This document shows, piece after piece, positions 13,299-45,106 of a DNA stretch of 64,000 nucleotides. This DNA comes from Thermothelomyces thermophilus ATCC 42464. Its lineage: Eukaryota > Ascomycota > Sordariomycetes > Sordariales > Chaetomiaceae. A program made the position numbers and the translations under genes. Under the pieces are notes generated by a model. It was not told the origin of the DNA. It searched no databases and saw only the letters and a program-made list of their open reading frames with translations. Location: NCBI RefSeq assembly GCF_000226095.1, contig NC_016475.1, positions 1 through 64,000 on the forward strand, read 5' to 3'. Numbering within the stretch: position 1 is the first letter of the stretch; every line of letters begins with the position of its first letter.

Positions 13299-14543
13299 AT
13301 GACTTCCCATCCCGAGTTCGGTGAACGAACACCTGGCTCTGAAGTGGCCAAAGTGTTCGCCGACCAAATTCGGGGGAAAACCAGTGAGTCGAGCGAGCGC
13401 CTCCTTCACCAAGAAGCAAAGAGCCGTTAGAGCGCTGCTGACTACTTTGGCATTCAGTCTTGGTGACCGGCGTTAGTCCCAAGAGCATCGGCGCCTCCAC
13501 CGTCCTGAACCTGGCGTCCCAGAGCCCGGGTCTTCTTATTCTTGCGTCACGTACCAAAAGTCGGATTCAAGAGGTCGCTGACCAGATAACGACAAAGTAT
13601 CCTGGCGTGCGGGTGGAGACTGTCCTCGTGGATTTGGGCTCACAAGAATCCATCCGTCGAGCGGCTGCAGACGTGGCGGCCTTGACTGACAAGCTCGACA
13701 TCCTGATCAACAACGCCGGAAGGGTTGTCACCTCTCGCCAAGCGACTCAGGAGGGTATCGAACAGCAGTTCGGTACCAACCATATCGGCCCGTTCCTCCT
13801 GACCAACCTTCTGCTGCCCCTGCTACGGAAGGCGGCAGAGACTAACCCTCCGGGCGCGACTCGCATTGTGAACCTCTCGAGTGCTGGTCACAGGCTGTCT
13901 CCCGTCCGCTTCTCCGATTACAACCTCGAAGGCAAACCTGTCCCGCCTGAGGAAGATCATGTCAAGCCCCTTCCAGGCGCCTTTGCAAACTGCACTCCTG
14001 ACGGTTACAAGCCCATCGTCGCATACGCGCAGTCGAAATCGGCAAACATCCTGTTTACCATCTCCCTACAAAGGCATCTGGCCAACCATGGCATCGCCTC
14101 TTATGCCGTCCACCCCGGCTGTAGGTTATCCTTGTTGTTGTTTCACCCTGTTTATTTATGCACAATGCCCTGATCCGTGTTACTTTCAGCTATCGTCACC
14201 GAGCTCAGCCGAGAGCAAGACGACGAACTCAACGCCGAATTCCACAAGCTGATAAAGTACTGGAAAACCCCTGATGAGGGGAGCTCAACCACACTTGTTG
14301 CCGCGCTGGACCCAGCTCTGAATGGTAAGAGGCATCCCTCGTCCCGAGAAAACAACAACCCGACTGCTGTTCCTTAATAATAATAATAATAAACTCACGC
14401 CTTTCACAGAGGTCAAAGGTTTCTATCTTTCTGACTGTCAGTATACTGAGCCCTCGGCACATGCCAAGGACGCCGCCGCTGCAGACCGCCTGTGGAAGTT
14501 GAGTGAAGAGCTGGTCGGGGAGAAGTTTTCCATAGGGGGTTGA
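13299..14543 (+). CDS. Short-chain dehydrogenase/reductase (retinol dehydrogenase/WWOX-like)
   Basis: Exons are 13299-13383, 13458-14120, 14190-14324 and 14410-14543, giving 338 residues; all junctions keep phase. The Rossmann fold begins near residue 30 with TGVSPKSIG, a variant of the TGxxxGIG cofactor motif. It continues with NNAG (about 117-120), a Ser in NLSSAGH and the catalytic YAQSK (Y-x-x-x-K). The order and length fit the light-chain-oxidoreductase group of classical SDRs that use NAD(P). The substrate cannot be assigned. The altered glycine motif (Pro-Lys in place of Gly-rich positions) is seen in several fungal members. The gene converges on the transporter gene to its right. Confidence 0.85.
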
Positions 14544-15142: not shown

Positions 15143-17142
15143 TCACGCGTCGTTTCCCGAGGCTGGCATCGGTTCATTGCTCGTGGCTGTCATTATTCCA
15201 TCTCTCGCACCCGGCTCTGTGCTGTTCGTCTGCGCTTTGTCTCCATCCTCGGAGTCGCTGATCGAATCCCGAAGTTCATGTGTGATCATGGCTTTACGGT
15301 CATTGTATGTCTTCCACGCTGGTGTCCCTATATACTTGATCGCTGTGATTGATGATCAAGGGTCAGAACTCATCCTCTCCATATACCAACTGGCCACCTG
15401 CGGAAGGAAACAGAAGGTCAACTCACCACCTGGTCGTTTATCGTCAAATATCTGCTCAATCTCCTCGAGCGTCTTGTTGGCTGTCTCCGGGAAGAAGAAA
15501 AACACGTGAAGAAACATGACGGCGCAGAAAACGGCAAAGATGACATATGTTTTCCACGTGATGTTCTCGAACGCCGGCGGGACGAAGTAAGCGAGCGCAA
15601 AGTTAAAGGTCCAATTTGCCGATGTGGCTAGGGCAACGGCCTTGCCTCGGAGACGGAGAGGGAAGAGCTCGGGAGGGTAGGTCCACGATACGGGGCCCCA
15701 TGTTGGCGCAAAGCTGGCAACGAAGAGGCAGGTTGCCGCAATGATGACCCGCGCGGCGGGACCACTCACAACCATCGACTCGGAAGCTGAAGCAAACTCT
15801 CCAGGCTCTGCGTCGCGAGCATAAACTCCGAACATGATGGCAGTGATGGTGAGCCACAGGCACATCAGGGCGGCTCCGATAAGAAGGGGCGGGCGGCGGC
15901 CCCAGCGATCCATCCACACGAGGGCGGGCACGGTCATCACAACGTTGATAATGAAGCTGACGCTGCTCGGGATCAAAACTTCATTGGTACCGGCATTGGA
16001 TAGTCCTGCCATGGTAAAGACGTATGTGATGTAGTACATCTAATACGGCCGGTCAGTCGGTTCAAGGTGGGATGCCAGAGCAAGTAATTAATAAGCTGGA
16101 GAGAAAGGGGAAGCTGACCATCACATTCATGCCCGTGAGTTGGGACCAGATTTGTGTAAAGACGCCGATCAAGGTCCGGTTCATCATGCTGGGTGTAAAG
16201 AGTTCGAGCCAACTGGCGTCAGCGTGCTTGTGTTCCTGGCTGACGGTGGCTTTGATGTCCTGGAGTTCCCTCTGGACGAACTGAGAATTGGCGTTGCCGC
16301 CGCCGTGTAGCTGAGCAAGGACGTCCTTGGCCTCCATCTCGCGGCCCTTCTTGAAAAGCCATCGAGGAGACTCGGGTTCAAAGCTGAGGCCGACGCAGAG
16401 GCAGATGGCAGGAAGCATCTGGAGGCCCCAGGGGATGCGGAAGGCCCCTGCGCCATCAACGTAAGAGCATCCAAAGCAGATGAAGTACATGATGAGAATG
16501 CCCCAGGTGATGGCCCACTGCTGCATGGCGACAAGTCGACCGCGCAGCGTCGGTGGGGCGATCTCGGTGATGTAGACGGGCACCTGGGCGGAGCAGATGC
16601 CAACAGCGAAGCCGTTGATGAAACGGCCAACCGCGAGCATGGGGAGATTGACCGAGGCGCAGGTCACGACAGACCCGGCAATCCTGTAAGTCCGGATGAG
16701 CTCCTGTGTGCTGAATCTCTCAAATTGTCAGGCAGATTCGCTACTACTCACCAGAAGACCGAGCCGATCATGATGGTCTTCTTCCGGCCGCACCGGTCTG
16801 ACAACCAGCCCGAGACAAGAGCGCCAATCAAAGAACCCCCGGGCATGGCAGCAGTGACGCCTCCCTGTGTATCCGACGTGGGGCCCAGGCAGCGGCCCTC
16901 CTTGTCGAAGCCGCGCTGGTTGAACTGACACAGGTACGGCTGTGTTGAGATGATGGCCGACATTGAAGACATGTCAAAGCCAAACAAAGCGCCCCCTTTA
17001 TAAATTCCAATCATTAATTAGCGCCAAATAATACACACTTCGACAACGGATCCTGGCCGGTGTTTTGCTGCAGACGGGTGAGGGTCAACTTACCAAGGAC
17101 GGCGAGGGCCGATATGCGGTAGATTCTCCCATTGCCGGACAT
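15143..17142 (-). CDS. MFS high-affinity glucose transporter-like (HGT1 group)
   Basis: Exons on the minus strand are 17142-17094, 16995-16752, 16683-16119, 16039-15427 and 15342-15143, giving 556 residues in phase throughout. The N-terminus (RIYRISALAVLGGALFGFD, then SSMSAII) is that of the yeast Hgt1 and Neurospora HGT-type glucose transporters. Sugar-porter hallmarks follow: SDRCGRK between helices 2 and 3, GRFINGFAVG, PESPRWL, DRWGRR, PPELFPLRLRGKA and PETANKTLEEIE near the end. Twelve membrane helices are expected, in the plasma membrane. The C-terminal 65 residues are hydrophilic and end in a Ser/Glu-rich tail. The role is sugar uptake by proton symport; preference among glucose, xylose and other hexoses cannot be read from sequence. 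Confidence 0.88.
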
Positions 17143-25888: not shown

Positions 25889-27048
25889 TCAGACAACCGG
25901 CCAACCGCTTGAAAAGTCGATGCGATTCCAACCAAACTTCTTCTGGCCGTCCGCATAGCCAATGCGAGTATCAACATAATGGTAGTACAAGACCTGGGAA
26001 GGAAGAGCGTTAGCAAGAGATGGGTTCAAGCAGGGTGATGCTTGATGCTCGATCCCCGATGCTGAATGCTAGGCCCGTACGGGAGAAAGGACGGGGAACT
26101 AACCGGTCCGTGTTCGGGGTCCTGGTAGACACCTTGGCCGCCGGGGCCGTACACCCAGTCGTGAGACGGGAGCACCAGAGTTCCACCGCCCGAGCGGCAC
26201 GACTTGCCGTCCCTGTCCTCGAAGGGGCCGGTGGGCGAGGTCGACCTGCACACCATGATCCTGTACTCCTGTCCGGCGGGCGGCCTGTTCTGGTCGTAGC
26301 CGCAGCACGTGCCCTTGGAGAAGAAAAGGTAGTAGTAGTCGCCGTACTTGAAGACGGTCGGGCCTTCCATGGCCGGGTCGTTGGGATCAAAGGCGACCTG
26401 GTACACGTTGCCGTTCGTCTTGGTGGGCGTCATGCGGACGCGATGGATGCCGTTCCAGAAGCTGCCAAACGTGAGGAAGTAGTTGCTGGTCCCCGGCTCG
26501 TTGATCAGGTTGCCGTCGATGGCGTTGTACGCCGAGCCCGTGCTGGAGGTGACACCGGTAGACCCGAGGTCGGTCCAGGTGCCGGCGTCCAGGCTCGATG
26601 AGCGGGCTATGCCGATGGCCGAGTTCTGGACGCCGAAGGTGCTGACGGAGTAGTACAGGTAGTACTGGTCTCCGACCTGTGCAACATCGGGGGCCTGGCG
26701 AGCTCGTCGTCAACATCATCATCACCCATAAATAAATTACATCCAGGCTGCGGGCCGTGAACGCCTTGTTCTTCTTACCCAGAGGTCCTGGTTCCCGTCC
26801 AAGTTGATGGAGGACCCGGCCGGCAAGGCGGCGCCCCTATAGGTCCACGGGCCGGTCAGGCTCGGCGCCGTGTGAATGGCGATCTTGCCACCAGTCGAGA
26901 AGCGGAAGTACGTCCCATCTGCGCGGCGGATGATTGACGGGTCGTGGGAGTTGTTGCAGACTCCAGTACATTCGCCCGGGAGCGCATAGGCAGAAACGAG
27001 GGCCGGGAACAGAAGAGCCACCGTCCCCAGAAGGCCGGATCTCTTCAT
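25889..27048 (-). CDS. Endo-1,5-alpha-L-arabinanase, GH43
   Basis: Exons on the minus strand are 27048-26779, 26694-26104 and 25993-25889, giving 321 residues, the exact usual length of Aspergillus AbnA-type enzymes. A signal peptide (about 1-20, ending VSA) leads to secretion. The five-bladed propeller has the three GH43 catalytic acids in expected contexts: base D36 in NSHDPSII, pKa modulator D150 in NAIDGN and acid E200 in AMEGPTVF. Also typical are [19 protein letters not shown] across the first intron and the C-terminal GWPVV. It should cut internal alpha-1,5 bonds of arabinan side chains of pectin. It shares a divergent promoter with the second GH43 gene at 27964. Confidence 0.93.
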
Positions 27049-27963
27049 CGTTGGTAGAGCAAGGTAAGGTAATTAGCCAAAGCTGGCAAGGTGAGAATGA
27101 CCGAACACGACGGACAGCCGCCTGAAGTTTGCAGCAGCAGTTAGACAGAAACCCGCCGACGAGGCCCGGAGGTTGTCGGGAGATAATCAATAATAATTAT
27201 TTAAGGTCGCTAAATAAACGGTTTCTGAAACCACGCTACTTTTAGCGAGACGGCCCTTGACGATACTACTAACTATGGGTCGTGACGCGTTGCCAAGCTC
27301 CGGGCACACGGGAAATCGAGGTTGCGACTTGTCGTGAGGGTGTGTATGAGTGATTAGGTAACCTCCTTTTTTTGAGTATTATTATTATTTCCTCCAACGG
27401 TAGGATAGTAACCCATGTGTGTGGAAGGAACCTACCTCTTGGCAGTTTTTCCATCCACTTGATCTGAGTAATATTAATAGCTGCTGGAATCCTTCGCTTT
27501 ACCAACTCCCGCAGACTGTTGCATCGTTCCCTCGTGGCCAGTTCGCGCAACGGGAATCAACGGAGAACCCGGGGAATAATACCCCATGCGCCTAGCCAGA
27601 GCCGCGATGCGCGCCAATAGACATGCACGTTTCAGCGTGTCAGAACGGGAGTTCGGCGGTTTTGTTTCCGCAAGTGACACTGCCCCCGATCGGAATCCAC
27701 TTCGATCAACGAGAGAGTTTTTCCGACGTGCATACATGCTACTACATGGTACGAGCACGAGGAAAGCTATGTTACAAGTTGTAGTCTGTAAGCCGAGGTC
27801 TTATAGCCATGTAGCTCACAAGATGTGTCAAGGGAGCGCCTAATAGTTCTGTAATTAATAAACCCTCACCCGGGTGCTCCAGCTTGAATGAAATACTACT
27901 GCGTTCCTACTCTATCCTTGGTAACCCTCATCTATGCCAAATTCTGTCTTTAACTAGCACAAG
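27049..27963. promoter_or_regulatory. Divergent promoter of the two GH43 genes
   Basis: 915 bp separate the two start codons. It contains TTAGCC at 27073-27078 and CTAGCC at 27592-27597, reverse complements of the GGCTAR core bound by XlnR/XYR1-type activators. CCGGGG at 27569-27574 fits the SYGGRG core of the carbon-catabolite repressor CreA/CRE1. Motifs this short occur by chance, so control by these factors is a suggestion supported mainly by the enzymes on either side. Confidence 0.4.
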
Positions 27964-29232
27964 ATGAAGGGTGTTTCCATCGCAGGGGCCTTCTCGGGCC
28001 TCCTTAGCTTGGCCTCAGCTGCCTCTTTCTCGAATCCTCTCAAACCCTTCAACGGGTCAGATCCTCATATGACCTACTATGATGGGTACTATTATCTGAT
28101 GACGACAACATGGACCGACCTGCAGATAACCCGAGCCAAGACCTTAGAGGGCCTCAAAAACGGAGAGACCAGGGTGGTTTGGACTGACTCGGATCCCTCC
28201 CGCTGCTGCAATGTCTGGGCACCCGAGCTTCACAAGATTGACAACAAGTAAGTGGTCACCATCAGCCCCAGCATGGTTATTAATTAAACTCTCTTTATCA
28301 ATGATAGGAGGAGGTTGGGCTAAAAGAAAACATCAATAGGTGGTACATCTACTACACAGCTGGAAACAACCAGAACCTAGATGGCCAGCGGTCTCATGTC
28401 CTAGAAGGTTAGTGAAAGAGCAGCTGCCTGCTATTTTGAGCAATTAGGTCTGGTAGGTTCTCGAGGAGACTGACTTATATACACAAATCTAGGTGGTTCT
28501 GACCCGTGGGGCCAGTACTCCTATGCCGGACAGCTCACCCAAGACTGGGGCATCGACGGTACGATTCTCCGCGTCCAGAACCAGAACTACTTTGTTTGGT
28601 CCTGCTTCTCGGACGGTATCCAGTCCCTCTGCATTGCGCCTTTGCAGTCACCGACTTCGATTGGCTCTCCCCGAGTGCTCTCGCAACCGCTCCTGGACTG
28701 GGAACGGGTCGACACTCCGGTTAATGAGGGGCCGGCACCGCTCTACCATGATGGAAAAATCTTCCTCGCCTATAGTGCCAGTTTCTGCTGGACACCTAGC
28801 TACCAACTCGGCCTCCTTACTTACAACGGGGGGGATCCGACTGCAGCCAGCAGCTGGACAAAGACGGGGCCCTTCTTCAGCTCGGCAAATGGAAACTACG
28901 GTCCGGGACACAATTCGTGAGTACCTCCAATAGAGCTCGAGCATTTCCCCATCATTACCGCCGCCCCTGATCGTGAGTCACGGGGTGTGTGCTGCACGCT
29001 GCCTGGCAGTAGGCGCTGTACACATACTGACCTGATCGGACCCAGGTTTGTCAATAGCCCGGACGGCACCGAGATCTGGAACATCTACCATGCGACCTCC
29101 ATCTCAACTGGTAATTGTGATGGCAACAGGTACACCGCGGCCAAGAAGGTGACCTGGAATTTGGATGGCTCTCCCAACTTTGGCAGCCCCGATCCCCTAG
29201 GCGTTGTCACTCCTGGGCCCTCGGGGGAGTAA
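27964..29232 (+). CDS. Secreted GH43 arabinan enzyme (likely exo-arabinofuranosidase, subfamily 26 type)
   Basis: Exons are 27964-28247, 28340-28407, 28493-28916 and 29046-29232, giving 320 residues. A signal peptide (about 1-20, ending ASA) is followed by a single GH43 propeller. The likely catalytic base is D33 in NGSDPHMTYYDGYYYL. VWAPELH is the usual GH43 second-blade motif, QDWGIDGTI carries the pKa Asp and NEGPAP the acid Glu. The pattern TTTWTDLQITRA...L is what I recall from subfamily 26 enzymes that release arabinose from 1,5-arabino-oligosaccharides; that subfamily call is inference. Head-to-head placement with an endo-arabinanase suggests the pair acts together on arabinan. Confidence 0.85.
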
Positions 29233-29945
29233 CGGTCTCCGGTGGTCCTAGTTATAATAATAACTTCCGCAGTTTTTAGCACGGACACTGTAACTTCATT
29301 CGCCTTGTTGGTAATTATGTGTCACCGTGTGGAAGGCAGATCATGAAGGTACCCAGCCTATGAACCGTCGACGATGCGTGCATTTCCATCAAGAAGAGGA
29401 AGGACCTGGGAAAGACACAATGTACGCTATAGCTGATGATGTCCATTATGGACCACCAACTTCGCAGCTGTTTCTGCCATGATATGGTGAACCATTGCGG
29501 GAAATAAAGGCAGAATAACCTGAAACAGATGGGGGTTCAGTGCGCAAGAGGTATGTAGCTCTTTTGAGGTCAGCAACTTGCAGAGAGCTGTGCAGCGGCC
29601 ATTCCGCAACGTAATTATCCTTTGTTGTAGTAATTAGTGACTACAAACCTCGCTGCAGAACCTGCTCAAACTGAGAGTTGAAAGCCCAATTAAAGAAGTG
29701 CTTTTGAAGAAACTGAGACCAGGCGCTCTTTCCATTGGCTCATGGTCGCTCATTGTTGCAAGCCCGTCTTCACCGGTCAGGTTGACGTCACTTACTTATT
29801 ATTACCCTTGCCCAAGATCCTCCAGCTCCTTCCCTGAAGCCACGCAATGCCACCGAAAGTAACCTGAGCCCTGCAAGCAGAAGCAGGAAGATCTCTTCAA
29901 CCCATTTCCGGATAATAAAATAAACGCCAAACGCCAAACAACAAG
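29233..29945. other. Intergenic
   Basis: 3' flank of the GH43 gene and presumed promoter of the hemerythrin-like gene. No gene is seen. Confidence 0.55.
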
Positions 29946-30562
29946 ATGCCTCAAATCTCCGAAGCAGTCAAGCGCGACCACGGGCTCATCCAGCGCGCGT
30001 ACCGCCGCCTCCGAAATGCCGATCCTGAAAGCCGTAACCCCAGCGAGTTCATGTGGGTTTTGAACCGGTATCTCATGGTGGAGGACCTTGTTGTGTCTCC
30101 CATCCTTGACAACCATGTCGCCCGCGGCGGCGAGAGGCATCGACGGCTATCGGATGACTACGACAGCGTAAGTCTACCACGCACTCCTTTAGAGGAAGCC
30201 TACTCGGTGGTGGGTAATGATGCCGCGCCTAACCCGTGAAAATATTTCCAAAGATGAATGCAAAGCTGCGGCATATGCGGCGATTTGACCCTTCCGACCC
30301 CAGCTTCGAATCGGCACTGAGGGCCGTCTGGGTTGACCTCGAGCCTCACATCAGGGAGGAAGCGTCCGGAGATTTGGACTCGCTCGAGGAAAACCTTTCT
30401 AGGTCGGAGTCCGAGGCTCTAGGGAAGAAGTACGACGATATCAAGGACCTTTTGCAGCGGCCCTACGGGAAGAACGGCGTGCCCGACGAGAGGACCCTGT
30501 CCGCCATCTTGGAGATGCCGCGACAAGAGCTGATGGTCAAGATTGGCATTAACGTGGCTTGA
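29946..30562 (+). CDS. Hemerythrin-like HHE-domain protein
   Basis: Exons are 29946-30167 and 30254-30562, giving 176 residues. A four-helix bundle is predicted with metal-ligand candidates in the expected order: H in KRDHGLI (about residue 12), a Glu in MVEDLVVSPIL, H in GERHRRLSDDYD and H in LEPHIREEA. This is the HHE cation-binding pattern found in many small fungal cytosolic proteins that probably bind a di-iron centre. Biological roles in fungi are mostly unproven (iron, oxygen or nitric-oxide handling). The intron acceptor is followed by MNAKLRHM, which reads smoothly from the first exon. Confidence 0.85.
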
Positions 30563-31072
30563 AGGACTCAAGGGGGTTTCATCTCTTTTCAAGGCTCTTG
30601 AGAAGCAACGACGGTATTCTTCTGCGGCGTCGCTTTCCCGCTTTTCGTGTCGGGAGTGGGTAGCTGGATCGGTTAAAGAGTACGAGGATGTGAAGAAAAA
30701 AGCAGTTTTCGTGGTTCACGACATGTTGTGTCAGTCGTGTAATTATTAGGTCCTCCTGTCTGGCTCTCGACGATGGATGGAAATAAGAATCCGGGCCGTT
30801 GGCGATCCATCACTGCCAGATCTGCCCCACCTCCACTGGCACCAAATAATTACCGTTCATTCAATTGCCTTAGATGGCGTGACGCACTAACTTAAGCTCG
30901 AGTGCCCCTGTTTCTCCGCAGGACACCACCACTCCGGTGAATCGGCTGAATCACTGCTGCGATATATCAAACCCGCCGGAGCCGAGGAGGAGAGTCGGAG
31001 GTGATCTCCTCGAGGTGCGACTTAGGGAAGCCATCCTCGCCCTCTCTCCAGTTGTGAAGTTACTGCCTCGCC
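30563..31072. other. Intergenic
   Basis: 510 bp between two genes on the same strand. No gene is seen; it is the presumed promoter of the dehydratase. Confidence 0.6.
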
Positions 31073-33163
31073 ATGGCATCCGGGCAGGATCAAGACCGCC
31101 CCTCTTTCGCATCGGGGACAAACCCCGACTACGACTTGACTACGCCAATCGACCCTCACGGAGTCGGTCTGCGACAGAAGCTGACCTCGTATGGCGACGC
31201 CCATTTCTCGCTTTTCATGCGCAAGCTCTTCATCAAGGCCATGGGCTACAGCGAGGATGCCCTTTGTCGACCAATCGTGGGCGTCATCAACACGTACTCA
31301 AGCTTCAACCCCTGCCATGCCAACATCCCCCAGCTCATCGATGCAGTGAAACGGGGCGTCCAGTTGAATGGGGGGCTTGCCATCGACTTCCCGACCATAA
31401 GCCTGCACGAGTCCTTTGCTGCTCCTACGAGCATGTACTTGAGGAACCTGATGAGCATGGACACCGAGGAGATGATCCAGGCTCAGCCGGTCGACTCGGT
31501 CGTCTTGATAGGGGGTGAGGCACGCCCCCGTTTCCTCATCGAGACTCGCGCCGTGTCCACGCAGTTCAACCTCAACGGACTATTAATCATTCTGACCGGA
31601 GTCTGATATTAGGCTGTGATAAGACGACGCCAGCCCAACTCATGGGCGGCATCTCGGCGAACAAGCCCATCATCCATCTCGTGACTGGTCCCATGATGCC
31701 AGGGAGTTTCCGCGGTGCGAGGGTTGGGGCCTGCACGGATTGCCGCAACAACTGGGCCAAGTTCCGAGCCGGCGCCATGGATATCGAGGACATATCGGCC
31801 CTCAACGAAGAGCTGGCACCGACGGTGAGTAATTAACCTTACCACCTCGCGCTTCAGCCCCAACACAACTCGGGCCTTTTAAGAAGTTTCTGACCGCATA
31901 ATTACAGGCCGGCACCTGCGGCGTCATGGGCACAGCAAGCACCATGGCCTGTCTCCTTGTCGCGCTCGGCATGATGCCCATCCAGGGGGCTACGGCACCT
32001 GCTGTCTCCTCGGCCCGGCTCCGCATAGCCGAGTCCACGGGCGCCCACGCAGTCCAGCTAGCCAAGACGGGCCTCCGACCGCAGACCATCCTGACCAGGG
32101 AGTCATTTCTGAATGCCATCACCGTCCTCCAGGCGGTCGGCGGCTCCACCAACGCTGTGGTCCATCTGACGGCCATCGTCAACAGGCACCCGGCCCTCGC
32201 GGGCACCATCACCCCGGCCACCATCGACGCCGTCGGCCGTCAGACACCCCTCCTGGTGGACCTCAAGCCCAGCGGCGACAACTACATGACCGACTTCCAC
32301 AACGCCGGCGGCATGCCCGCCCTCCTGCACCAGCTCAAGCCGCTGCTCCACCTCGGCGCCCTGACCGTGACCGGGCGCACCCTCGGCGAGGAGCTCGAGC
32401 GCGTGGCCTTCCGGCCGCTCCTCCCGCCCGACAGCCCGGCCAACTGCATCCGCCCGCTCGGCGACCCGCTCTACCCGTCCTCCGCCCTCGTCGTCTTCCA
32501 GAGGGGCAACCTCGCGCCCGGGGGCGCGGCCGTGATCAAGGCGAGCGCGTCCAAGGACCGGCGGCTGCTCCGGCACCGCGGCCGGGCGGTGGTGTTCGAC
32601 GGGCCGGCCGACCTGGCGGCGCGCATCGACGACCCGGACCTCGACGTCGACCGCGACAGCGTGCTGGTCCTCCGGGGCGTCGGCCCCGTCGGCCGTCGCC
32701 ACCCGGGCATGCCCGAGGCCGGGCTGATCCCGATCCCGCGCAAGCTGGCCGCGCAGGGGGTGCAGGACATGCTGCGCATCTCGGACGGGCGCATGAGCGG
32801 CACCGCGGGCGGCACCATCGTCCTGCACGTCTCCCCCGAGGGGGCCGACCCGGGCTCGGTGCTCGGGGTCGTGCGCGACGGGGACGTGGTGTTTTGCGAC
32901 GTCGAGGAGAGGACGCTGAGCCTCGAGGTGGACGACGACGAGATCCGGGCCAGGATCGAGCAGAGGAGGCGGGACATGGCTGCCGCGGCCAAGGCCGGCA
33001 AGGAGGAGGAGGAGGAGGAGGAGGAGGAGGAGCAGCCGTGGGCCGCCCGCGAGCATGTCAGAGGGTACCGCGGCCTGTACATGCGCGAGGTGAACCAAGC
33101 CGAGCACGGCGCCGACTTTGGCTTCCTCACCGCTCGCGGTCCTCATCAAAACGAACAGGCGCA

Positions 33164-33170
<7 letters not shown>
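31073..33170 (+). CDS. IlvD/Edd-family Fe-S dehydratase, sugar-acid (aldonate) type
   Basis: Exons are 31073-31514, 31613-31824 and 31908-33170, giving 638 residues. Cluster cysteines are C81 (FNPCHANI), C149 (GGCDKTTPA) and C222 (AGTCGVM). Their spacing of 68 and 73 equals what I recall for Rhizobium L-arabinonate dehydratase and differs from dihydroxyacid dehydratase (73 and 73). The C-terminal block reads PGMPEAGLIPIPRKL and SDGRMSGTAGGTIVLHVSPE, the MSGT form of aldonate enzymes rather than the SGG form of branched-chain amino acid synthesis. It should dehydrate a sugar acid to a 2-keto-3-deoxy acid using a [2Fe-2S] cluster and Mg2+. No mitochondrial signal is evident. A run of Glu residues (GAG repeat, 33001-33033) lies in a loop before the final RGYRGLY block. 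Dihydroxyacid dehydratase remains the alternative. Confidence 0.85.

Positions 33171-33206
<36 letters not shown>
33165..33206. repeat. (GAT)n microsatellite
   Basis: About 13 GAT units start exactly at the stop codon of the dehydratase gene and continue into its 3' flank, shortly after a GAG run inside the coding region. Confidence 0.9.
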
Positions 33207-34586
33207 CGGCGCGATGTGATTAGGCAGGTTAGTTAGTTAAATATGGTACTGGAATAGAACGGTGAGCGGCCAAAGAGATCATAATTACATGGCCTTCTGT
33301 TGTTGGTGGGAACCATCCTCTCAAGGTCACGAGACCGAGGAAGGTCTCAGTCGAGCTTCCGAAATGGAAACTTGGCTTTCTTTGGATGTCATCTCTGAAT
33401 GCTATCCAGGAGGAACGAATACCTACCTGCACTCTCGTACAGTTGAGAATCTGATAGTAGTCACCGTATCTCTCTCATCATTCCAGGAGAGTACCTAATG
33501 AGGCATTCCACACCCCGTTCATGGCAATAGCCCATCGACTCAACCCCCGCCAACCCCCCCCCCCCCCGCCGGCCCCCCGCCCCCCTTTTGATTCCCGACA
33601 CTGGTATATTGCAAAAAAGGTAGGAGTGGCTCTCTCACGGCAATAGATTAGTCTAGACAATACTAATATACAAAAATTTAGAAACCACGGCCTCAAGAGC
33701 GAAAAGAGGATTGTTAGCTAGGAAGCTTAAGAAAGTCTCAATAGCATGCCATGTCCTCCCACACCACCGAGGGTCCTCGTTCCGATGATGTTGGGCGTAG
33801 CCATCACCAAAATTGTATATCACAGGTTAGTAATATTGGAATGTCTAATCCTCCTTGATTCTATCATTTGGTTCATGTTCTATTAATTTGTACACGGGAC
33901 GCCTACGTTATCCCGGACTGGGTGGCAGCATCTTGGCTCGTCTATTGAGAGTTGAAGCGAGTTGACCCTACGGGGTCCCGGAAGGCCAAAATCCAACTCA
34001 CAATGCCGTGCCTTGTGAGGAGGCGCCCTACGGTTCCGTTTTCCTCCTGCCCCGCGACAAGCGCCAGAGAGGAGAAATTGGCAGTGCGTAGGAGACAAGA
34101 GGTGACAAGACGGACGCCAACTCAAAGGCACCTCTGTTAACCGTCCAGCTCCAAGGGATCCGAAAATTTTCTGCTGCCGCCACTCTGCTGATGTAACATC
34201 GGGGGAGTCTTTGAATACGATTTGGTTATGTGACTCTCGATACGGCCCTCTTTGCGTGAGAGATTTTTTTTGGGCCCGCCTAAATTCACGGGATGGCGAT
34301 GCCGCAGATACATCCATGTACAATACCTGGGCGATGACCGAAAGAAAGAAGCGGGGGAGCCACCACCTCCTCGTCAGCCATAATAGCGCGCTGGCGCCGT
34401 TTGGCAGTTCGAGCACGGAGTCTTCAACGTCAGCGCTGTGGAGGGGGGGCGGTTCCGTGGGTTCCGCAGCGCGACTCAGCGAATCCGGGTCCGTGGCAAC
34501 CCTCCTTAAGAGCGGGCTAATGCAAGGGACGAGAATTGATTCCCAGATGGAAGCGGGAGCAAAAAATGGCACCTTGTGCCTGACCG
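33207..34586. other. Intergenic with C14 tract
   Basis: No gene is recognised. 33541-33590 is extremely C-rich with a run of 14 C at 33554-33567, which makes the minus strand prone to G-quadruplex formation. A minus-strand open frame at 33883-34572 shows no family resemblance. The DNA transposon begins at 34587. Confidence 0.55.
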
Positions 34587-34685
34587 ACTACCTGGTGGTT
34601 AGTTGCTGACTAATTAGTTCAGGACTACCACCTGTCTCCCGACAGGTGGGGCCAAAACCCCCGGACATGCCAATATAGCCGGACA
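34587..34685 (+). repeat. Left 99-bp terminal inverted repeat
   Basis: It starts ACTACCTGGTGG and ends near GCCGGACA. It includes a perfect 9-bp hairpin (CCACCTGTC, loop TCCC, GACAGGTGG) about 41 bases in, which is also present in the right copy. Confidence 0.9.
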
Positions 34686-35918
34686 GGTATACGTCCAAAT
34701 CCGCGTCCAATTTTACCAGCCAACTCCCTATATTCGAAGATACAACCACTGCCATAAGCCTAATTAAACCTACTCTCCTATATACAATACCTCTAACTAA
34801 CCAAATCTAGGAACCGGCTAGTATACGGGCCGCTAAATGGCTCCTTGCCGCTTAAGCTCGCTACCAAACTAGCCATTTACCCTATAGAAAGTAACCTAGT
34901 ATTTGGTATACGGCTTAGCTATTTAAGACTAGAAAGACCTAGGTTAGCCGGCACTTAAAGTCTTTAAAGGATATTAGACTTCTAGCTACTAGTAGTAACG
35001 CGGTTAGAAGACCTTAGTCACTTTAAAACGATAAAGATTCGGCCCTCGAAGGATATATATATTAGCTTATCGAATCTGGTTTTCTTGCTACTAAAGATCT
35101 TCTCTAAGATACTACTAACCGTTTACAGGCACGTTACGATCCTCCCTACCCTCCTATTAATAAGTACTATTAGTCACGTTAGAAATAGGATTATCTATGG
35201 TTTTAGCTGATATTCTTTAAACTAGTCAAAGTAAACTAACTCTCGGCCGAATAATAGGTAGAAGAACTAGAGATATTCTTTAATAAGCTCGAGGATACTA
35301 TTAAAAGCTTTAAAATTACTATATCTAGCTATTAGAATGTAGATAAAACTAGATATGTACTTATAATATCAAATAGGCGGTTTAAGATCTTAATAGTTAA
35401 AATAGATAAGAAGAAAAAGGTTAGTTCCCTTCTTTAGATATTAATATGGAATACTTATTATGGTATTTCATTAGCTAGAGATTCTAGACCTTTATAACTA
35501 AAAGTTAATAAATATAATTAGTACTAGAAACGCTATTAGCGATATTATCCTAGTATTCTATATCTTTAAATGGTAGCTATTAGAAGATTAGGATATTAAT
35601 AGTCTTGATAAGAAGATTTAATTCTATAAGTTAAAGATAGCGTTTAATAATACTAAGATTATAATAGATTAGATATAACATTTTAATAAATACTCGTTTA
35701 CTATCTATACTAAGTTCTAGTAATGTAGTATAAGCTTTAAGGAATGGTTTAGTTATAACTATTATAACTTTAGTCCTACTCTTAGTATATACTTTATTAA
35801 CCTAGATAACGTTACCTCTAAAGATTTGATCTATATATCTATACTATTAGAAGAATATATATACTAACTACTTATCCTAGACAGCTTTATAGGATATTAT
35901 AACCTTAAGCTTTATAAA

Positions 35919-35923
35919 TACTA
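35919..35923. repeat. Target-site duplication TACTA, left copy
   Basis: TACTA directly precedes the left LTR, and the same five bases follow the right LTR at 43515-43519. Five-base duplication is normal for Gypsy integrases. Confidence 0.9.
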
Positions 35924-36371
35924 TGTGACGAACCCAGCTCAGACTTCTTCTAAAAGGGTCTAGACAGAGGTAGGTTGGGCGGAACAAGCAGGCAGGTCGT
36001 CTAAGGGATTCGGTGAAGCTAAAGGGTTTATAACAACACTTAGAGTTGTCTCTCACAGTAATCAACAATGCTTGGTATAAGTACTGTGATTGTGATTGTT
36101 ACCACTGGTGAACTCCCAGAGTCCATCATAACGAGTGACTGGCTAGCTATATATATATAATAGTCTGTCCTTCTTTAATAGTTATCACTAGTATTACTTC
36201 TCCTTTCACTTCGTGATTCTACGTTATTGACGGTGACATGTTATTATCACTAGTGAAGACCTTAGTCTTGGCGGTGATAATCTTCTGATTGGTCTGTCGA
36301 GTGATTGGCTGTCGGAATGTCCTGTGTCCTAGCTATAGCCTGCCAGGCTGCCTATATGCTTATTTATGACA
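35924..36371 (-). repeat. Gypsy LTR, left (3' LTR of the element)
   Basis: 448 bp from TGTGACGAACC to TTTATGACA. It is colinear with the right LTR over its whole length; differences are mostly transitions. Confidence 0.93.
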
Positions 36372-36479
36372 TGATGCCCTTCCTTTAAGGCTTTCGACCT
36401 AAAAGCCCTCTTAGGTCGTTTCAAATAGCGCTAATAACCCTTCGCTTGTAAGTACTATATTCTCCCTATTTCTGCATCG

Positions 36480-36713
36480 TGGTCGCCATGCTGATAAAAT
36501 GCCGATAGAGAAACGGAAGTCGTACTCTGTACGTTACTGTACTTCCCTTGCTCAGAACATCGCTAAGAATGGTTTTGTCGTTATGCCTTGCTCTTAGTGC
36601 GCGTCGCAAGGCCTTGTCTGTAAAATGATTACGCGTATAAAGCGTTACAAGGCCTATATTTGTCGAGGTTGTTCTTACGATGGCTCTAGCATCCTGCTTT
36701 CTTCCTGTAAGCC

Positions 36714-36745
<32 letters not shown>

Positions 36746-37140
36746 CTGTGATTCCTAATGTTTGTTCTAGTAGATCGTATTCTTTAGGAGCAGCGTCGTA
36801 TCAAAGATGCTAAACGTCGTGCCGAACTTGAGCTAGATAAATCCTAACGCTGTCTAGAAGAAGCCTAGCATAAGTTATCTAAAAAGCTTATATAGCTCTA
36901 GCGTCTTCGTTAGTAGAAGGAGTTTTTGGTGGAGAAAGGTACCGATATAGTGGCGCGTAGTCTGTCGACCTTAGACGAGTTAGAGGAGGTTAAGCAGCAA
37001 GAGACGCCTGCTATGCCCTCGTCATAGATTAATGATGCCGTCGATGCTGTCAACTAGGGTGCTATCTTTGGTTCTATCCTAGGTTTTCCTTTAGTCGATC
37101 TAGGTTCTGCTGGTAGAACTGTTCTAGTTTCTTAGGGTAG
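36480..37140 (+). mobile_element. Antisense accessory region of the Gypsy element (fossil)
   Basis: Between the integrase end and the left LTR, on the strand opposite pol, there is a coding-like stretch. It has a Cys-rich, zinc-binding-like part near 36580-36690, followed by a charged, coiled-coil-like part near 36780-37020. Several fungal Gypsy elements appear to carry an extra reading frame in this place. The region is broken and its former function is unknown. Confidence 0.5.
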
Positions 37141-40100
37141 TTCAAATTCTTGACTAGTTCCTATAAGTTGTCTTCTGGTCTGAAATCAAGCCATTTGACC
37201 AGGTACTATAGTTCCCTGTTAATAATACGTGAATCTAGAATTTCTTTGACGTCCTATTCTTCCTCTTCGTCCTCTGCTTCGATGTGCGTAGCAACCTTGG
37301 CGTTCTTTGGTGCTGGTTCGAGAAGTGAAATATGAAAAACATCTGTCTGTAGGCGTATAGATGACGGTAACGATAGTCGGTAGTTAGATGTCGAAATTCG
37401 TTCTTTGATAATAAAGGGTCTGACCTTCTTGAAGTCTAGCTTCGCGCTTGGTCGTTTGGTTTGCAGGTTTCGTATAATTAGGTAGACTTTGTCTCCCCTC
37501 TCTAGGCGAGGTCCCTTGAGCCTGTATTTGTCGTAGTAGTTCTTTATTCTAGTTCTGACAAACTTGAGTTCCTTTTTGAGCTTCTTATATAGTGTATATA
37601 TCTGTTTTACTTTGACTACTGCTCTTGGCACTGTGACCTCTGGTCCTTGCCTAAGGTCTGCTTTATATCTATAGTTCGCGAAGAACGGTGTAACTTTGGT
37701 CGTTTCCGTTAGCGTCGTATTATAAGCGAGTTATGCTATTGGCAATAGTATAACCTAGTCGTTTTGCTAGTAATTGATGTAAGAACGGAGATATTACTCG
37801 ACAACTTAGTTTAGTCGCTCTGTTTGTCTGTCGGTCTACGGGTGATATACTATTGACAGCTTACTATTAACGCCTAATCGTTATATTAATGCTTGCTAGA
37901 ACTTCGATACAAACTTGGTGTCTCTATCGGTAATCTATTCTTGCGGCCAAGCATGCACTGATATAACTTGCCGATAGATTACGTCTACTAACTGTTCCGC
38001 TGTCTAGGACTCCTTGTAGGGAAAGAAGTATACCTATTTAGTTAGGCGATCTACTATAGTAAGAATACTATCGTAGGTCACTCCTATAGCTATGTCCTTA
38101 GATTCTAGTAGCTTCGTAATAAAGTCTATTATAACTAAACTCTATAGTTTGTCAGCTATTAGTAGTGGCTGAAGTAGCCTATACGGCTTATGTCGTGCCG
38201 TCTTGCTTCGATTGTAAATGTCGTAGTTCCGTATGACTTCCTTAACTCGTACTGTTAACTATAGAAAGTCGTAATGTTTCTTGACTTGTACGACAGTCTT
38301 CGTGACTCCTTTATATCTTCCGAGTTTCGACTTGTAGAGTTCTCGAATCATTCGTAGCTGTTGATCCCTGTCGTGGATGTATGCTTTGCCTCGGTACTAG
38401 AGTTTCCTATCTTTTTCTTCCACTCCGTCAGGTACCACTGGTCCGGGTGCTGCTTGATACTATGCCTCGTTGATCCTTTCCTCTCGAAAGATTGTATAGC
38501 ATTCTAGGAACGAGTCAAGTAGATCATCTTCTATAGGTATCTACGTTTCGTAATATAGCGTTCCGTCTGTTCGTTCCTTGAATAACGGTAGTATTGTTCC
38601 CGTTTGTCCTTTCGTATGATCCGTTCGTCGACTTAAAATGTCTACTTGTACGTTTTCTTTACCCTTCTTGTAGTAGATCTCGAAGTTAAATTCCGCGAGG
38701 AATTTTGCCTATCGTATTTGTCGTCCGTTGAGTTCCTTTGTCGTCGTGAAGTATCGTAAATTCTTGTGATCTATATACACTTGTACTAGTTTAATTGTGC
38801 CACTGAGGTATAGTCGCCATTCCTTAAAAGCTTCGACAATCGTAAGTAGTTCCTTGTTATAAATCGGATAATTGAGACGTGGTCTATCGAGCTTCTTTAA
38901 AAAGAAGGCTATAGGATGTAGCTTCCCTTGTTCGTCTTATTGTCCTAATTGTCCTCTGATGGCGTAGTCTGAAGCGTCCGTTTCTACCTCGAATAGCTTC
39001 TTAGGGTCTGGTAGTACTAGTACTAGATCTTTAATAATAGCGTTACGGATCTATATAAATGCTTGCTTGTATTACTCTTCCTATTGGAATTTAGTATTCT
39101 TCTTGGTAAGCTCGTGCAAAGGTCGTATGATCGCTCTAAAGTTCCTAATGAACATTCGGTAGAAGTTCGTAAATCCGATGAAGCTTCGTACTTCCGTGAC
39201 TGACGTCGGTCGTAGCCAATTCTTGATGGCTTTAACCTTTGAAGGTTCTATCTGGATTTGTCCTAGGGATATTTCGTATCCTAAAAAGACTATCTTCCTG
39301 ACATGGAATTTGCTCTTTTCCTTGTTAACTGATAGCTTGTACGTGTATAGCGCGTCTAGTACTGCTATTACATGCTTCCGGTGTTTGTCTATTGTCTTGG
39401 AGAAGATGAGTATATCGTCGAGATAATATATCGCAAATTTGTCAAGAAAGGGTCAGATAGCTTGATCAATCAGGGCTTGGAACGTTGCTGGCGCGTTCGT
39501 AAGTCCGAATAGCATGACGAGGTACTTATAGTGGCCATAGGGTATCCTAAAGGCCGTTTTCCACTCGTCGCCTTCTTTGATCTGTATATAGTTGTAGGCC
39601 AATGGTAAGTTAAGATACATAAAATATTAGGCTCCTACTAACTAATCTCAGAGCTGTGAGATTAGCGGTAACAGGTATTGGTTTTTCACGGTCTGTTTGT
39701 TAAGTTACCAATAGTCAACGTATAACTGTAGCTTTCTGTCTTTCTTAGGTATAAATAGGATCAGGTAGCCTACTAGCGATGTCGATAGGCAGATATATCC
39801 TCTTCGAAGGTTCTCCTTTAAATATCGCTTAAGTTCTTCGTTCTATGTCTAGCTCGTATAGTAAATCTTGAAGAACTTTAGTTATGCTCCTTCCTTGAGC
39901 TTAATCTCGTGATCCTATGGGCCGTGTTCTGGTAATCCTTCTAGATGCTTTGGTTCGAATGTTAGGTGTCCCTCGTACTCCTTCGGTACTTCCCTAGTCT
40001 TGCCTCGTTTCTCGGTTTTCTAATAGTATACGAACTTGGTTCCGTCTATAGCGATGCTAGCGATTTCTCCTGTCTTAACCTACTACTCTAATTACAGTGC

Positions 40101-43066
40101 TCCGTATTCGTCAACGGAGAGAACAGCTATCAGCGATTTAGCTCGTTCCTCCTGTCGTGATATTGATGTCGTTATGCCGCCTCTTCTAGAGTCCGTAGTG
40201 GTCTGTCTGCCACTGTCCGTCTCTTGCGGTGGATCTGTAGGATATGCCTTTCCTTGAGTATCGTCTGCTCGCGATCCTTGCGCGCTCCCTATCTCGCTAG
40301 TTGAATACGACTCCGTTCGGGGTTGTAGGTAGCTACTATTCTTCTAGCTGATGTCCGGGTTATAGTCTTTATACCATGGTAACCCTAATATCATATCTTT
40401 GTCGTTACCTATGTCTACGATGCTAAATACGACTGCTATAGTCTTTCCTGCCATAGTAATGTCGATCGGTTTGGTCTCCTTATATATCTATTACATTAGA
40501 AATGGCCCTTTGACTATATTATACTTCCACTTCATTCTCTAGGGTATTCGTAGCTAATTTACAAGTGTCGGCGAAATCAGATTTATCTCTGCTCTACTAT
40601 CTACTAGTACGAGCATTTCGTACTATTTCTACTATGCTATTATCTATAATCGCTTGTCTTGCCGCCGTCGTCCAAAGATTGTAGCGATTTCCTATATTTC
40701 TGCCAGGAGGTCTCGATATAGTGGTCTCTTACGCTAGTTCCTCCTGTACTATGCTATTACTTGCCGCTATATAGGCGTTAATGGTTTCCAGGCCCCTCGA
40801 AGGGCCTTAACCCGTTTCCTAGGTTAGTACTAACCTCTTTAGTTATTTGGCTGATAGCGGCTTCGTCGATCATGCTTATTTCCGTGAGCTATTAAGTGCT
40901 TACGGCTTCCTACTATTAGGTTTGTTCTGCTTTCCGTCGTGCGTGCTATAGCTTCGTCTAAAGCTCCCGAATTCGCAATTTCTTTTTGTCCGCGTGATAG
41001 AGGCAATCGTTGCTCTAGCACGAATCCTATATGTCTTGTCCGGTTCTGTAGTACCTAGGCTAGGCTCGTTTTAGAACTATCGTAATGCTTTCTAGGTCGC
41101 GGGCTTCGATCTTCCAGAGCAATTCGGCCGCTCTGTTTCCTGTATCGTAGACCTATTCCACAGGGCGTAAGCTTCTGTCCTCATTTCCTTGTCGGGTCGG
41201 CCAGTGATTGTTTTCGAATTTGTCGCGGAAGTGGTATCGGCATTCGTGTGCTATACACTGGAACTAGGGCACTTGCGTATATGCTTTGTGTCGAGGGTAT
41301 AGTCGCGTGGCGTTGCCTAGGAGGTATTGGAATTCTTTCCCGAATCCTTCCCACTGTACGTAGACCGTAGGTACTCTAGTGCTAATATAGGAGTATTTCT
41401 TCTAGTAGCTTTCCTACGTACGCTCGTCTTTTCTGCGGTTCGCGCGTATGAACTGGTATTCTAGGTTCCGTATATCGTTACTAAGTTATTAGCTGTTAAG
41501 ATACTTAGTATAGCTATCGGGCCTATTATATATTATAGGCTGTTCTCCTTTGATGGTTTCTACAATACGTCGGAGTTCCCTCATTTTGTCCCTTATTCTA
41601 TCGCTTTGTTAGGCAAGTCAAATCAAGCGCCCGTCCCGTTCGTGTAGTTCTATATTAAGCTAAAAAACTTTATTACGGTACTATTCGATTCGTTCCTAGA
41701 GGAATAGAATATTAGGTCTAGGTCTTTCGATTCCTTAGGTATCGGTTGTCTACGATCTATCCCGCCTCTATATAACTATGAAACCTTACTGCCTTAAGGC
41801 TAGGAGAATCGAAACTAGTAGTATATATTCTCCTGCCATGTCCTATTTAGCAAGACCTGTCTCTGGGTCTATAGTGACCAATTCGGAGTACGGTGCTTGT
41901 TTGTCTTTACCGTTACCGTTATATCCGAGACTGTCCGTATTACTGTCCTTGTCTTCGTAGCTCGTAGCCGCTACTTCGATGACGTCTTTGGTGGTTTCGT
42001 CGATAGTCGTAATTTCCTTTCTAGGGGTTGGTTTCTATTCTTTCTTTAGGCTTCGGCATTCTTGCTTGTAGTGCCCTTTCTTTCCGTAGTTATAGTAGGT
42101 AACATTAGACTTGTCTTTGGCCGTCTTCTTCTAGTCCTGCTTCTACGCTGTATTTATATCTATAGCTCCGGGGTGCGTCCTGTACGAGGTACTAACGTAC
42201 GCTCGCTTTTTCTTATCATTAGCCTTAACCGTGGTTCCGTTCATTTGACCTCGTTTCTGCTACTCTCGTGTGTAGAGTCAATCATTGATCCTAATGGCCT
42301 ACGTAATATATTTATCTAGAGTCTTAGGCTAATCGTACTTATATAGCTCGTCCTTGACCTTTTCCTTCAGGCCATTATAAAACAATTGTATTAATGCCTT
42401 ATTATTAAGCTAAGACTTGAGTATGTCCTGTCTGAATTATACGGTGTAGGAGGCTACTGACTTGGTCTATCGGAGATTGGCGAGTCTTTCTTACGTATGA
42501 ATCTTCTCGTCTTTATTGCTAAAAACTTTCCGAAGCTCTTCTTCGAAACGGTCGTAAGATCAGAAGACTGCCTATATAAACGCGTCTCGGTCGTCTTTGT
42601 CTTCCTCAGTGAGATAGTCATTCCACGTCGGCTCGAACTATCTGAGTGCCTTGCCCTCTAGTCTTGTGGCTACGTAAAGGACTTTGGCTTTTTCGTCTAG
42701 AAACTTGTTATCATTAAGCTGGAAGTAGGATCAGAGATTTGTTAAGAATCCTATAAGATCCTCCTTAGTTCCTCTGTATTTGCTAGGTAGTTCGATCTTG
42801 ATACGCTTCGCTTTGGCGCCCTCAAGTGCCTCGATTTTGGTGTAGGCCTCGTTGACTAACTTCTGCAAGTACTTTTCGCGGTTCTCGAGTTCCTTGATTC
42901 GAGCTTAAGCAGCCTTATCTCTCTAGTCTAACTCCTAGATCCGCTGCTAGAGTTGACCAAGCTAGGCGAGCAGTTGTTTGGCCGTGACGTCGGTAGCCAT
43001 GTCGGTGTCGAGGTCAAAGTCACCTCCGTTCTGAACTATAATAGAATAAAGGGAGTAGTAATAACG

Positions 43067-43514
43067 TGTAACAAACCTAGCTTAGACTTCTTCTAAAAGG
43101 GTCTAGGCAGAGATAGGTTAGGTAGAACAAGTAGGCAGGTCGTCTAAGGGATTCGGTGAAGCTAAAGGGTTTATAATAACACTTAGAGTTGTCTCTTATA
43201 GTAATTAACAATGCTTGGTATAAGTACTATGATTGTGATTGTTACCACTGGCGAACTCCTAGAGTCTACTATAACGAGTGACTAGCTAGCTATATATATA
43301 TAATGGTCTGTCTTTCTTCAATAGTTATTACTAGTATTACTTCTCCTTTCACTTCGTGATTCTGCGTTGTCGACGGTGATATGTTATTATCACCAGTGAA
43401 GACCTTAGTCTTGGCGGTGATAATCTTCTGATTGGTCCGTCGAGTGATTGGCTGTCGGAATGTCCCGTGTCCTAGCTGCAGCCTGCCAGGCCGCCCATGT
43501 GCTTATTCGTGACA
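43067..43514 (-). repeat. Gypsy LTR, right (5' LTR of the element)
   Basis: 448 bp from TGTAACAAACC to TTCGTGACA, pairing with 35924-36371. TACTA follows directly. Confidence 0.93.
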
Positions 43515-45007
43515 TACTACCTCTTATTTGACATTATTATTATCTTCCTCCCTCCCTATTTAATATACTTTATCTAGCTAATGGATATAGGAGTCTTTTA
43601 CTATCTTAAGGAAGTATATTAACGACATCTCCGGCAGGTAGTTCGAAATGGCGATCTTACATTTACCTAGGCAGACTTTGTTAAAGGATTCTAGGAAATC
43701 TAGAATACTAGTTTCAAACGCCGAAATATTATAATAGAATTCGAAAAGACTAGTCTTTTTCTACTAAACCGATATATTATAATGGACTAGATCAGGGAGA
43801 AAGTATTATCTAGTATAAGTATTAGATATCCTATAATAATTCCTAATAATAAGCGATAAGTATATATAAAAAAAGGTATTAACTATATTTAAGAGTAATA
43901 TCTTAAGCTTTTTAGTTTACTAATATAAGAACACTTTTAAGATATTACATTAATAATTAATAAGGGTTAGCTAATATATAAATATCTAAATAACTTTACT
44001 AAGGATAAGAGAGCCTATCTAGCTATATTATCTACTAAGAAAATATAAGGCTAACTTATTAAGCTAATAAGAGAGGTTATAATAAATATAACCATCTAGT
44101 AGATTTAATAGTTTTAGAAAATCTAAGCTTAGAAGAATGTTAAGGTAATTTAAAATACTAGCTAAAAAGCTACCTATATTACTATTAAGTAGATTAAATA
44201 AGAGTATAAGGAGGAATACAAAGTCTAGAAAAGGCGCCTAGAAAACAAGATTCCTAGTACTAATAGGTATCACCTTTATATAGTAACCTTTACCAAATTC
44301 TTGGAAAAGACCAACAAGAACAACTATCTTCCTCTTAATAATAAAGACCCTCTCTAGGTTCTACTAAAGAAACATTAGCTACTAGCATTTTTCGACTTTA
44401 GAGATAAAAAAGAAGTCCTAATCCCCTAGTTAGCTAAGAAGCCGTTATCAGAAGTTAAACTCCTATCCTTTAAACATCCTAAGATATGGATTAGTAATAT
44501 AACTATAATGTTAATTAACGATAGCGACAATGATAGATTTGACTTTATGGATAGTAGAGATAGGTAGGAAGAGGATGTCAAGTTACTATCTCTATCTAGG
44601 GGTAAGAAGGAGTCTCTATATATAGCCATTATTAAGGATATTAGGAGGTTTAGGAAGCGATATACCTATAAGTCTATAGTAATAATACTAGAGATAGAAG
44701 ACAATAGCTATTACTAGGAGGCTAAAAGAAAAGGTACTATTATAATTAGGAGTATTAAGAGTAATAGGGATAGGGGGTATAATATAGAGGGAGAGGGAAA
44801 CAAAGGTAAGTTATATAACCTATTATTCGACTAGTTATAACTAGGTAGAATTAAATTTTACTATGTTTTTAAGCTTTTTAGAGCCTAGTTTATAATTGAA
44901 CTATTTATAGCTATTTAAGGCTATTATTATAAGGGTAATTAAACTTAAATTAAACTTGATAGTACCTTTTGTAAAGACGCGAATGTATAGGAAATTTGGT
45001 AGTGATA

Positions 45008-45106
45008 TGTCTGGCTATATTGGCATGTCCGGGGGTTTTGGCCCCACCTGTCGGGAGACAGGTGGTAGTCCTAAACTAATTAGTCAGCAACTAACCACCG
45101 GGTAGT
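45008..45106 (-). repeat. Right 99-bp terminal inverted repeat
   Basis: Reverse complement of 34587-34685 with about three transition-type mismatches. It contains the same internal hairpin. Confidence 0.9.

Follow-up and report, generated by a model that had tools for sequence, protein, structure and literature searches.

The subject of this report is a group of four genes and one shared promoter in Thermothelomyces (Myceliophthora) thermophila, lying at positions 25889-33170 of a stretch of 64,000 nucleotides (hereafter the window). The window covers positions 1-64,000 of contig 4 in the genome that we searched, which has 38,744,216 bases in 7 contigs. The genes were modelled by manual splicing at GT-AG sites and named by Pfam and PDB sequence searches, with the following result.

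25889-27048, minus strand: endo-1,5-alpha-L-arabinanase-type gene (MYCTH_103032), 321 aa; exons 27048-26779, 26694-26104 and 25993-25889.
27049-27963, no strand: shared divergent promoter, 915 bp between MYCTH_103032 and MYCTH_2305738.
27964-29232, plus strand: secreted GH43 enzyme, nearest to exo-acting alpha-L-arabinofuranosidases (MYCTH_2305738), 320 aa; exons 27964-28247, 28340-28407, 28493-28916 and 29046-29232.
29946-30562, plus strand: hemerythrin (HHE) domain gene, 176 aa; exons 29946-30167 and 30254-30562.
31073-33170, plus strand: IlvD/Edd dehydratase of the VGACTDCR clade (fungal ILV3 group 2 type), 638 aa; exons 31073-31514, 31613-31824 and 31908-33170.

In our opinion this is very probably an already known pair of divergent arabinanase genes, next to two neighbours that have no functional link to it, and the substrate of the dehydratase is probably not L-arabinonate. 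The original prediction had read the same genes as one group leading from arabinan to sugar acids. The arabinan half of that idea holds, given the pair itself and the dependence of arabinanolytic genes on the regulator MtAra-1, but no link from there to the dehydratase was found in our analysis.

The pair itself is not in doubt. The MYCTH_103032 protein has a signal-peptide-like N-terminus and its GH43 domain scores 127 bits against a Pfam cut-off of 32.2. Its best solved matches in the PDB sequence search are the endo-arabinanase structures 6b7k and then 1uv4; with the bacterial AbnA equivalog it reaches 168 bits, under the cut-off of 480. MYCTH_2305738, whose GH43 domain (168.4 bits) is likewise over the Pfam cut-off, is a predicted exo-arabinofuranosidase. 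Its best solved match is the alpha-L-arabinofuranosidase 3akf (E 1.2e-55), which we take to be an exo-1,5-acting enzyme, and its further PDB matches are labelled beta-xylosidase, arabinofuranosidase or GH43. Judged by homology, the endo-arabinanase would cut linear 1,5-arabinan and the exo-type enzyme would free arabinose. With 11-15 GH43 genes placed at random (15 matched pieces in the genome search, which we reckon to be about 11 genes) among what we take to be about 9,110 genes, some 0.01-0.02 adjacent pairs would be expected.

A table in PMC4061905 gives MYCTH_103032 as a GH43 endo-1,5-arabinosidase at 4:25889-27048, a span identical to the one modelled here, and MYCTH_2305738 as GH43 at 4:27829-29545; other GH43 positions from our genome profile search also agree with that table. 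In a full-text literature search both locus names were found only in PMC4061905. The same paper lists, after Kuhnel et al., Abn1 and Abn4 of M. thermophila C1, which are likewise an endo-arabinanase and a GH43 arabinofuranosidase, at 36 and 33 kDa, near the predicted sizes of our two proteins. From family and size, with accessions not compared, we infer that Abn1 is MYCTH_103032 and Abn4 is MYCTH_2305738. The predicted secreted endo-arabinanase and exo-type GH43 enzyme over a promoter of about 0.9 kb are confirmed, and the divergent GH43 pair is an ordinary arabinanase pair that has already been described.

The GGCTAR and SYGGRG cores that had been pointed out in this promoter are indeed present, but they are not more frequent than in dinucleotide shuffles, and we rejected them as evidence of co-regulation. 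GGCTAR has 2 sites, both on the minus strand (27073 and 27592), against a shuffle mean of 1.04, and 29.5% of 1000 shuffles reach 2; SYGGRG has 4 sites against a mean of 3.19, a number reached by 39.5% of 1000. When the background is taken from the window itself, as 157 overlapping stretches of 915 bp that are mostly coding and in a few cases include part of the promoter, 6% hold at least two GGCTAR and 67% at least four SYGGRG; the excess of GGCTAR is mild at most. The 510 bp upstream of the dehydratase gene contain no GGCTAR. No binding motif for MtAra-1 is given in the main text of PMC10040116, and a literature search returned no suitable paper for one.

According to passages of PMC10040116, the genes of arabinanolytic enzymes fall together on arabinan when MtAra-1 is deleted, and this regulator governs galactose use as well as arabinose use. 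Part of PMC6745793 describes abn1 as induced by L-arabinose independently of MtXyr1 and abn4 as MtXyr1-dependent. If these two are the genes discussed here, as we suppose, the pair responds unlike to MtXyr1.

The dehydratase gene is intact, with a spliced frame that stays open across introns of 98 and 83 bases, and it starts 1.84 kb past the end of MYCTH_2305738. An Fe-S dehydratase of the aldonate type less than 2 kb beyond the pair had been predicted, and the distance, the motifs and the tree position all agree with this. Pfam assigns PF00920 (330 bits) and PF24877 (165 bits). The protein passes the broad PRK06131 model (703 bits, cut-off 539), stays under the cut-off of edd (141 bits against 708) and misses that of the YjhG/YagF model. 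A profile search found at least three IlvD/Edd genes in the genome: one dihydroxy-acid dehydratase (DHAD), one DHAD-like paralogue and the present gene, which is the only one of sugar-acid type found among them.

Taking the catalytic positions of sugar-acid dehydratases (SADHT) from a passage of PMC9314677, and reading the alignment of the protein with the structure 8ej0 by eye, we find GCDKTT, the active-site Glu/Thr/Gly positions and SGTA, while the third-cysteine motif is GTCG and not the SADHT GHCM/NT. For comparison we used 87 close bacterial relatives, consisting of 80 genome loci (the best 80 of 553 confirmed, from at least 596 matches; mostly Burkholderiales) and 7 plasmid loci picked from the best matches. 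All 87 have GCDKTV where the fungal protein has GCDKTT; VGACTDCR is present in 86 of them and MSGTA in every one. A C-terminal histidine is fully conserved in SADHT according to a passage of PMC11316719. The fungal protein ends in ...AQG, and a histidine end is found in 0/87 bacterial relatives and also in 0/4 annotated L-arabinonate dehydratases (araD). Given its absence from annotated araD, this residue is a poor discriminator of substrate class, and we dropped it as a test.

Some further features of the protein may be mentioned here. VGACTDCR sets two extra cysteines beside the active-site threonine across the whole IlvD/Edd clade. Near the C-terminus there is a poly-glutamate insert of ten GAG codons (33003-33032), and a (GAT)n microsatellite (33166-33205) opens with the stop codon, thus the tail may vary among strains. 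The passages of PMC8262921 and PMC4761134 contain nothing on this gene.

In a tree of 32 rows, which included four annotated L-arabinonate dehydratases and five DHADs, the protein falls in an otherwise bacterial clade of 19 rows (support 100/98). The annotated L-arabinonate dehydratases form a separate clade (100/100, four rows) and the DHADs another (98/94, five rows); the fork that unites the 19-row clade with araD is weak (88/61). Identities follow the same pattern: 54-59% to bacterial proteins of the clade, 40-42% to the four annotated araD and 29-34% to DHADs. The fungal dehydratase belongs to an IlvD/Edd clade that it shares with proteobacteria.

In the gene neighbourhoods of these bacteria, a single representative served to name each of 10 neighbour clusters among the 18 commonest; the 8 unnamed ones include two of 13 and 12 loci, mostly from Polynucleobacter. 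Within four genes of the dehydratase, the 80 genome loci have a TctC uptake receptor (39 loci), LysR (29), GntR/FCD (22), DHDPS (13), a hydroxyacyl-CoA-type dehydrogenase (11) and an enolase-type dehydratase (9). Six annotated plasmid loci give a similar picture, with TctC or a tripartite transporter in 4 and a DHDPS-family gene in 3; the seventh plasmid locus carries no annotation. The bacterial relatives stand mostly beside genes of carboxylate uptake and hydroxyacid metabolism, a setting that fits the import and degradation of hydroxy or sugar acids.

Our proposal for the fungal enzyme is as follows. The enzyme would depend on [2Fe-2S] and Mg2+ and would probably be cytosolic; it would dehydrate a 2,3-dihydroxy acid, of the 2R,3S configuration seen with studied relatives, and so form a 2-keto-3-deoxy acid. 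Its substrate would most likely be some hydroxy or sugar acid, but not L-arabinonate, and the pathway concerned would not be encoded beside the gene.

Several points weigh against our reading of the four genes as a whole. The branch of the fungal protein is long (1.08), no other fungal row of the tree falls in its clade, and clade membership does not settle substrate. At one of the six annotated plasmid loci, from Agrobacterium (54% identity), the genes downstream of the dehydratase homologue are for a short-chain dehydrogenase (SDR), a sugar ABC transporter and an aldehyde dehydrogenase, and such a setting is sugar-like. MYCTH_103032 and MYCTH_2305738 are not named in the text of PMC10040116, hence their MtAra-1 dependence is not seen there by name, and the dehydratase may still be co-regulated with the arabinan genes.

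One can also go beyond our proposal and imagine a cytosolic enzyme of ancient bacterial origin that burns sugar or hydroxy acids, such as the aldonates that lytic polysaccharide monooxygenases (LPMO) and cellobiose dehydrogenases release, through a non-phosphorylating branch, and that is perhaps co-induced with the arabinanases. We consider this combination improbable, and no named gene of a non-phosphorylating sugar-acid branch was seen in this fungus. Slightly less probable still, to our mind, is a special case of the proposal that we prefer, namely that the enzyme uses aldonic acids such as gluconate which arise from extracellular oxidative enzymes and are unrelated to arabinan. Cellobiose dehydrogenase is presumably present in this fungus, and passages of PMC6745793 report 24 LPMO genes. 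The nearest solved structure, 8ej0, prefers gluconate (passages of PMC9314677; the PDB code is linked in those of PMC11316719), and an orthology-based model, as described in part of PMC9781776, assigns such a dehydratase step for gluconate to six other fungi. However, we found no gene link to aldonate use here, and 8ej0 does not have VGACTDCR.

The oxidative branch suggested originally, in which arabinan is cut outside the cell, L-arabinose is converted to L-arabinonate and the dehydratase turns this into 2-keto-3-deoxy-L-arabinonate, is in our opinion very unlikely. Some points speak for it. The protein retains GCDKTT, the active-site Glu/Thr/Gly positions and SGTA of the sugar-acid type, and its identity to the annotated L-arabinonate dehydratases is 40-42%. 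The Agrobacterium locus would suit such a pathway, as would that of a more distant Phaeobacter relative (48% identity), whose operon also encodes a Gfo/Idh/MocA oxidoreductase and an SMP-30 lactonase, and family searches found four DHDPS-family loci and apparently one SMP-30 gene in the fungal genome. Yet the protein reaches 554.6 bits with the L-arabinonate dehydratase equivalog PRK13016, under its cut-off of 882, and sits in another clade than the annotated enzymes. Three bacterial relatives, two of them scanned on partial sequence, are also under 882, at 627-705 bits. When the Phaeobacter lactonase and two Gfo/Idh/MocA proteins were used as queries, none of the 80 close bacterial loci had a homologue within five genes.

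A scan of 20 frames from the window and of the proteins of the genes showed neither a lactonase nor a Gfo/Idh/MocA sugar dehydrogenase. In the whole fungal genome, Pfam searches gave one match to the enolase-type family and three to HpcH/HpaI. An SDR gene (13442-14170, plus strand) lies 12 kb left of the arabinanase, which leaves room for a sugar dehydrogenase within the window. Queries with the Phaeobacter sugar dehydrogenase and lactonase gave no match in the fungal genome, a search that shows little, as it had no positive control and its lactonase query missed the SMP-30 gene found by family search.

Physiology also weighs against the oxidative branch. D-galactonate has the configuration of L-arabinonate at C2-C4. 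A studied L-arabinonate dehydratase accepts D-galactonate too (passage of PMC11316719). In the experiments described in passages of PMC8113861, M. thermophila given a galactose dehydrogenase accumulated D-galactonate and stopped growing on galactose; when an A. niger galactonate dehydratase was added, 2-keto-3-deoxygalactonate built up. MtAra-1, as said above, governs galactose use too. Were our dehydratase an L-arabinonate enzyme in the MtAra-1 regulon, the galactonate block should have eased. This argument is indirect, since the dehydratase may not have been expressed under those conditions and slow turnover would be compatible with accumulation. Furthermore, deletion of MtAra-1 lowers the reductive pathway genes and abolishes growth on L-arabinose (passages of PMC10040116), and in Neurospora deletion of xr, ard-1 or xyk-1 lowers growth on L-arabinose (part of PMC13158570). 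It is the missed PRK13016 model, the separate clade, the growth loss without MtAra-1 and the accumulation of galactonate that make us regard the oxidative L-arabinonate branch as very unlikely.

That the enzyme is a spare DHAD for valine and isoleucine synthesis is likewise very unlikely: it shares the superfamily and 29-34% identity with DHADs, but it scores 375 bits against the ilvD (TIGR00110) cut-off of 618, it has GCDKTT where branched-chain enzymes have GCDKNM (motif rule in a passage of PMC9314677), and the genome already has a canonical DHAD on contig C2, with 771 bits against the same cut-off, as well as the DHAD-like paralogue. The latter lies at C3:377263-381099 and has 5' introns; duplicated fungal DHADs suggest themselves for comparison.

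As to the remaining gene, the hemerythrin-like protein matches PF01814 (34.2 bits, cut-off 25.3). It had been noted before as having no obvious link to the others, and our analysis agrees: there is no visible connection to the other three genes. The window opens with CCCTAA telomere repeats (1-150), which places the four genes 26-33 kb from the telomere of chromosome 4. As far as the evidence goes, they are an arabinanase pair and two functionally unlinked neighbours in a gene island near the telomere.

Other genes of the window deserve a brief mention. A concentrative nucleoside transporter gene (PF07662/PF01773; 23128-24792, plus strand) adjoins the endo-arabinanase gene, and a Sugar_tr sugar-transporter family gene (15359-16727, minus strand) lies about 9 kb from it. 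Closer to the telomere are a mitochondrial calcium uniporter (MCU) gene (5778-7158, plus strand) and a gene with an Acetyltransf_8 (GNAT) domain (7761-9359, plus strand), a domain type common in siderophore synthesis. On the other side, the block 34001-46000 is AT-rich (GC 0.39-0.44), with TA/AT of 1.40-1.46, depleted CA+TG and a reverse-transcriptase fragment at 39084-39452; it looks like the product of repeat-induced point mutation of retroelements.

Nothing that we found ties the dehydratase to arabinose use, and the grouping looks ordinary. The arabinan genes have been described already, and the dehydratase carries little weight for an oxidative L-arabinose branch. Nevertheless, if it acts on a sugar acid, a step of fungal sugar-acid metabolism that is poorly assigned would gain a gene, and the VGACTDCR clade would gain a substrate.

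One of the closest known systems is group 2 of the fungal ILV3 proteins. In passages of PMC3445565 (2012), this group clusters with alpha- and beta-proteobacterial sequences, apart from DHAD, and an ancient lateral transfer is suggested for it; its A. fumigatus members AfIlv3C and AfIlv3D are not predicted to be mitochondrial and their roles are called unclear. Our dehydratase, too, is an IlvD/Edd protein from a filamentous fungus and groups with sequences of such bacteria. The group 2 tree of that paper has no M. thermophila protein, and similar bacterial neighbours (Bordetella, rhizobia, Methylobacterium) lead us to regard the two as probable orthologs. The Rhizobium leguminosarum L-arabinonate dehydratase (PDB 5j83/5j84 and 9evv; 5j83 with E 9e-117) belongs to the same superfamily and has the same active-site positions, but it has GSGT where the fungal enzyme has GACT. 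Still nearer by sequence, and the nearest of the solved structures (E 1.9e-124), is the sugar acid dehydratase of Paralcaligenes ureilyticus, 8ej0, which reads GSGTDVW where the fungal enzyme has GACTDCR. VGACTDCR, the motif that marks the clade of the fungal dehydratase, is absent from the three best solved structures that we aligned, of 18 matches listed.

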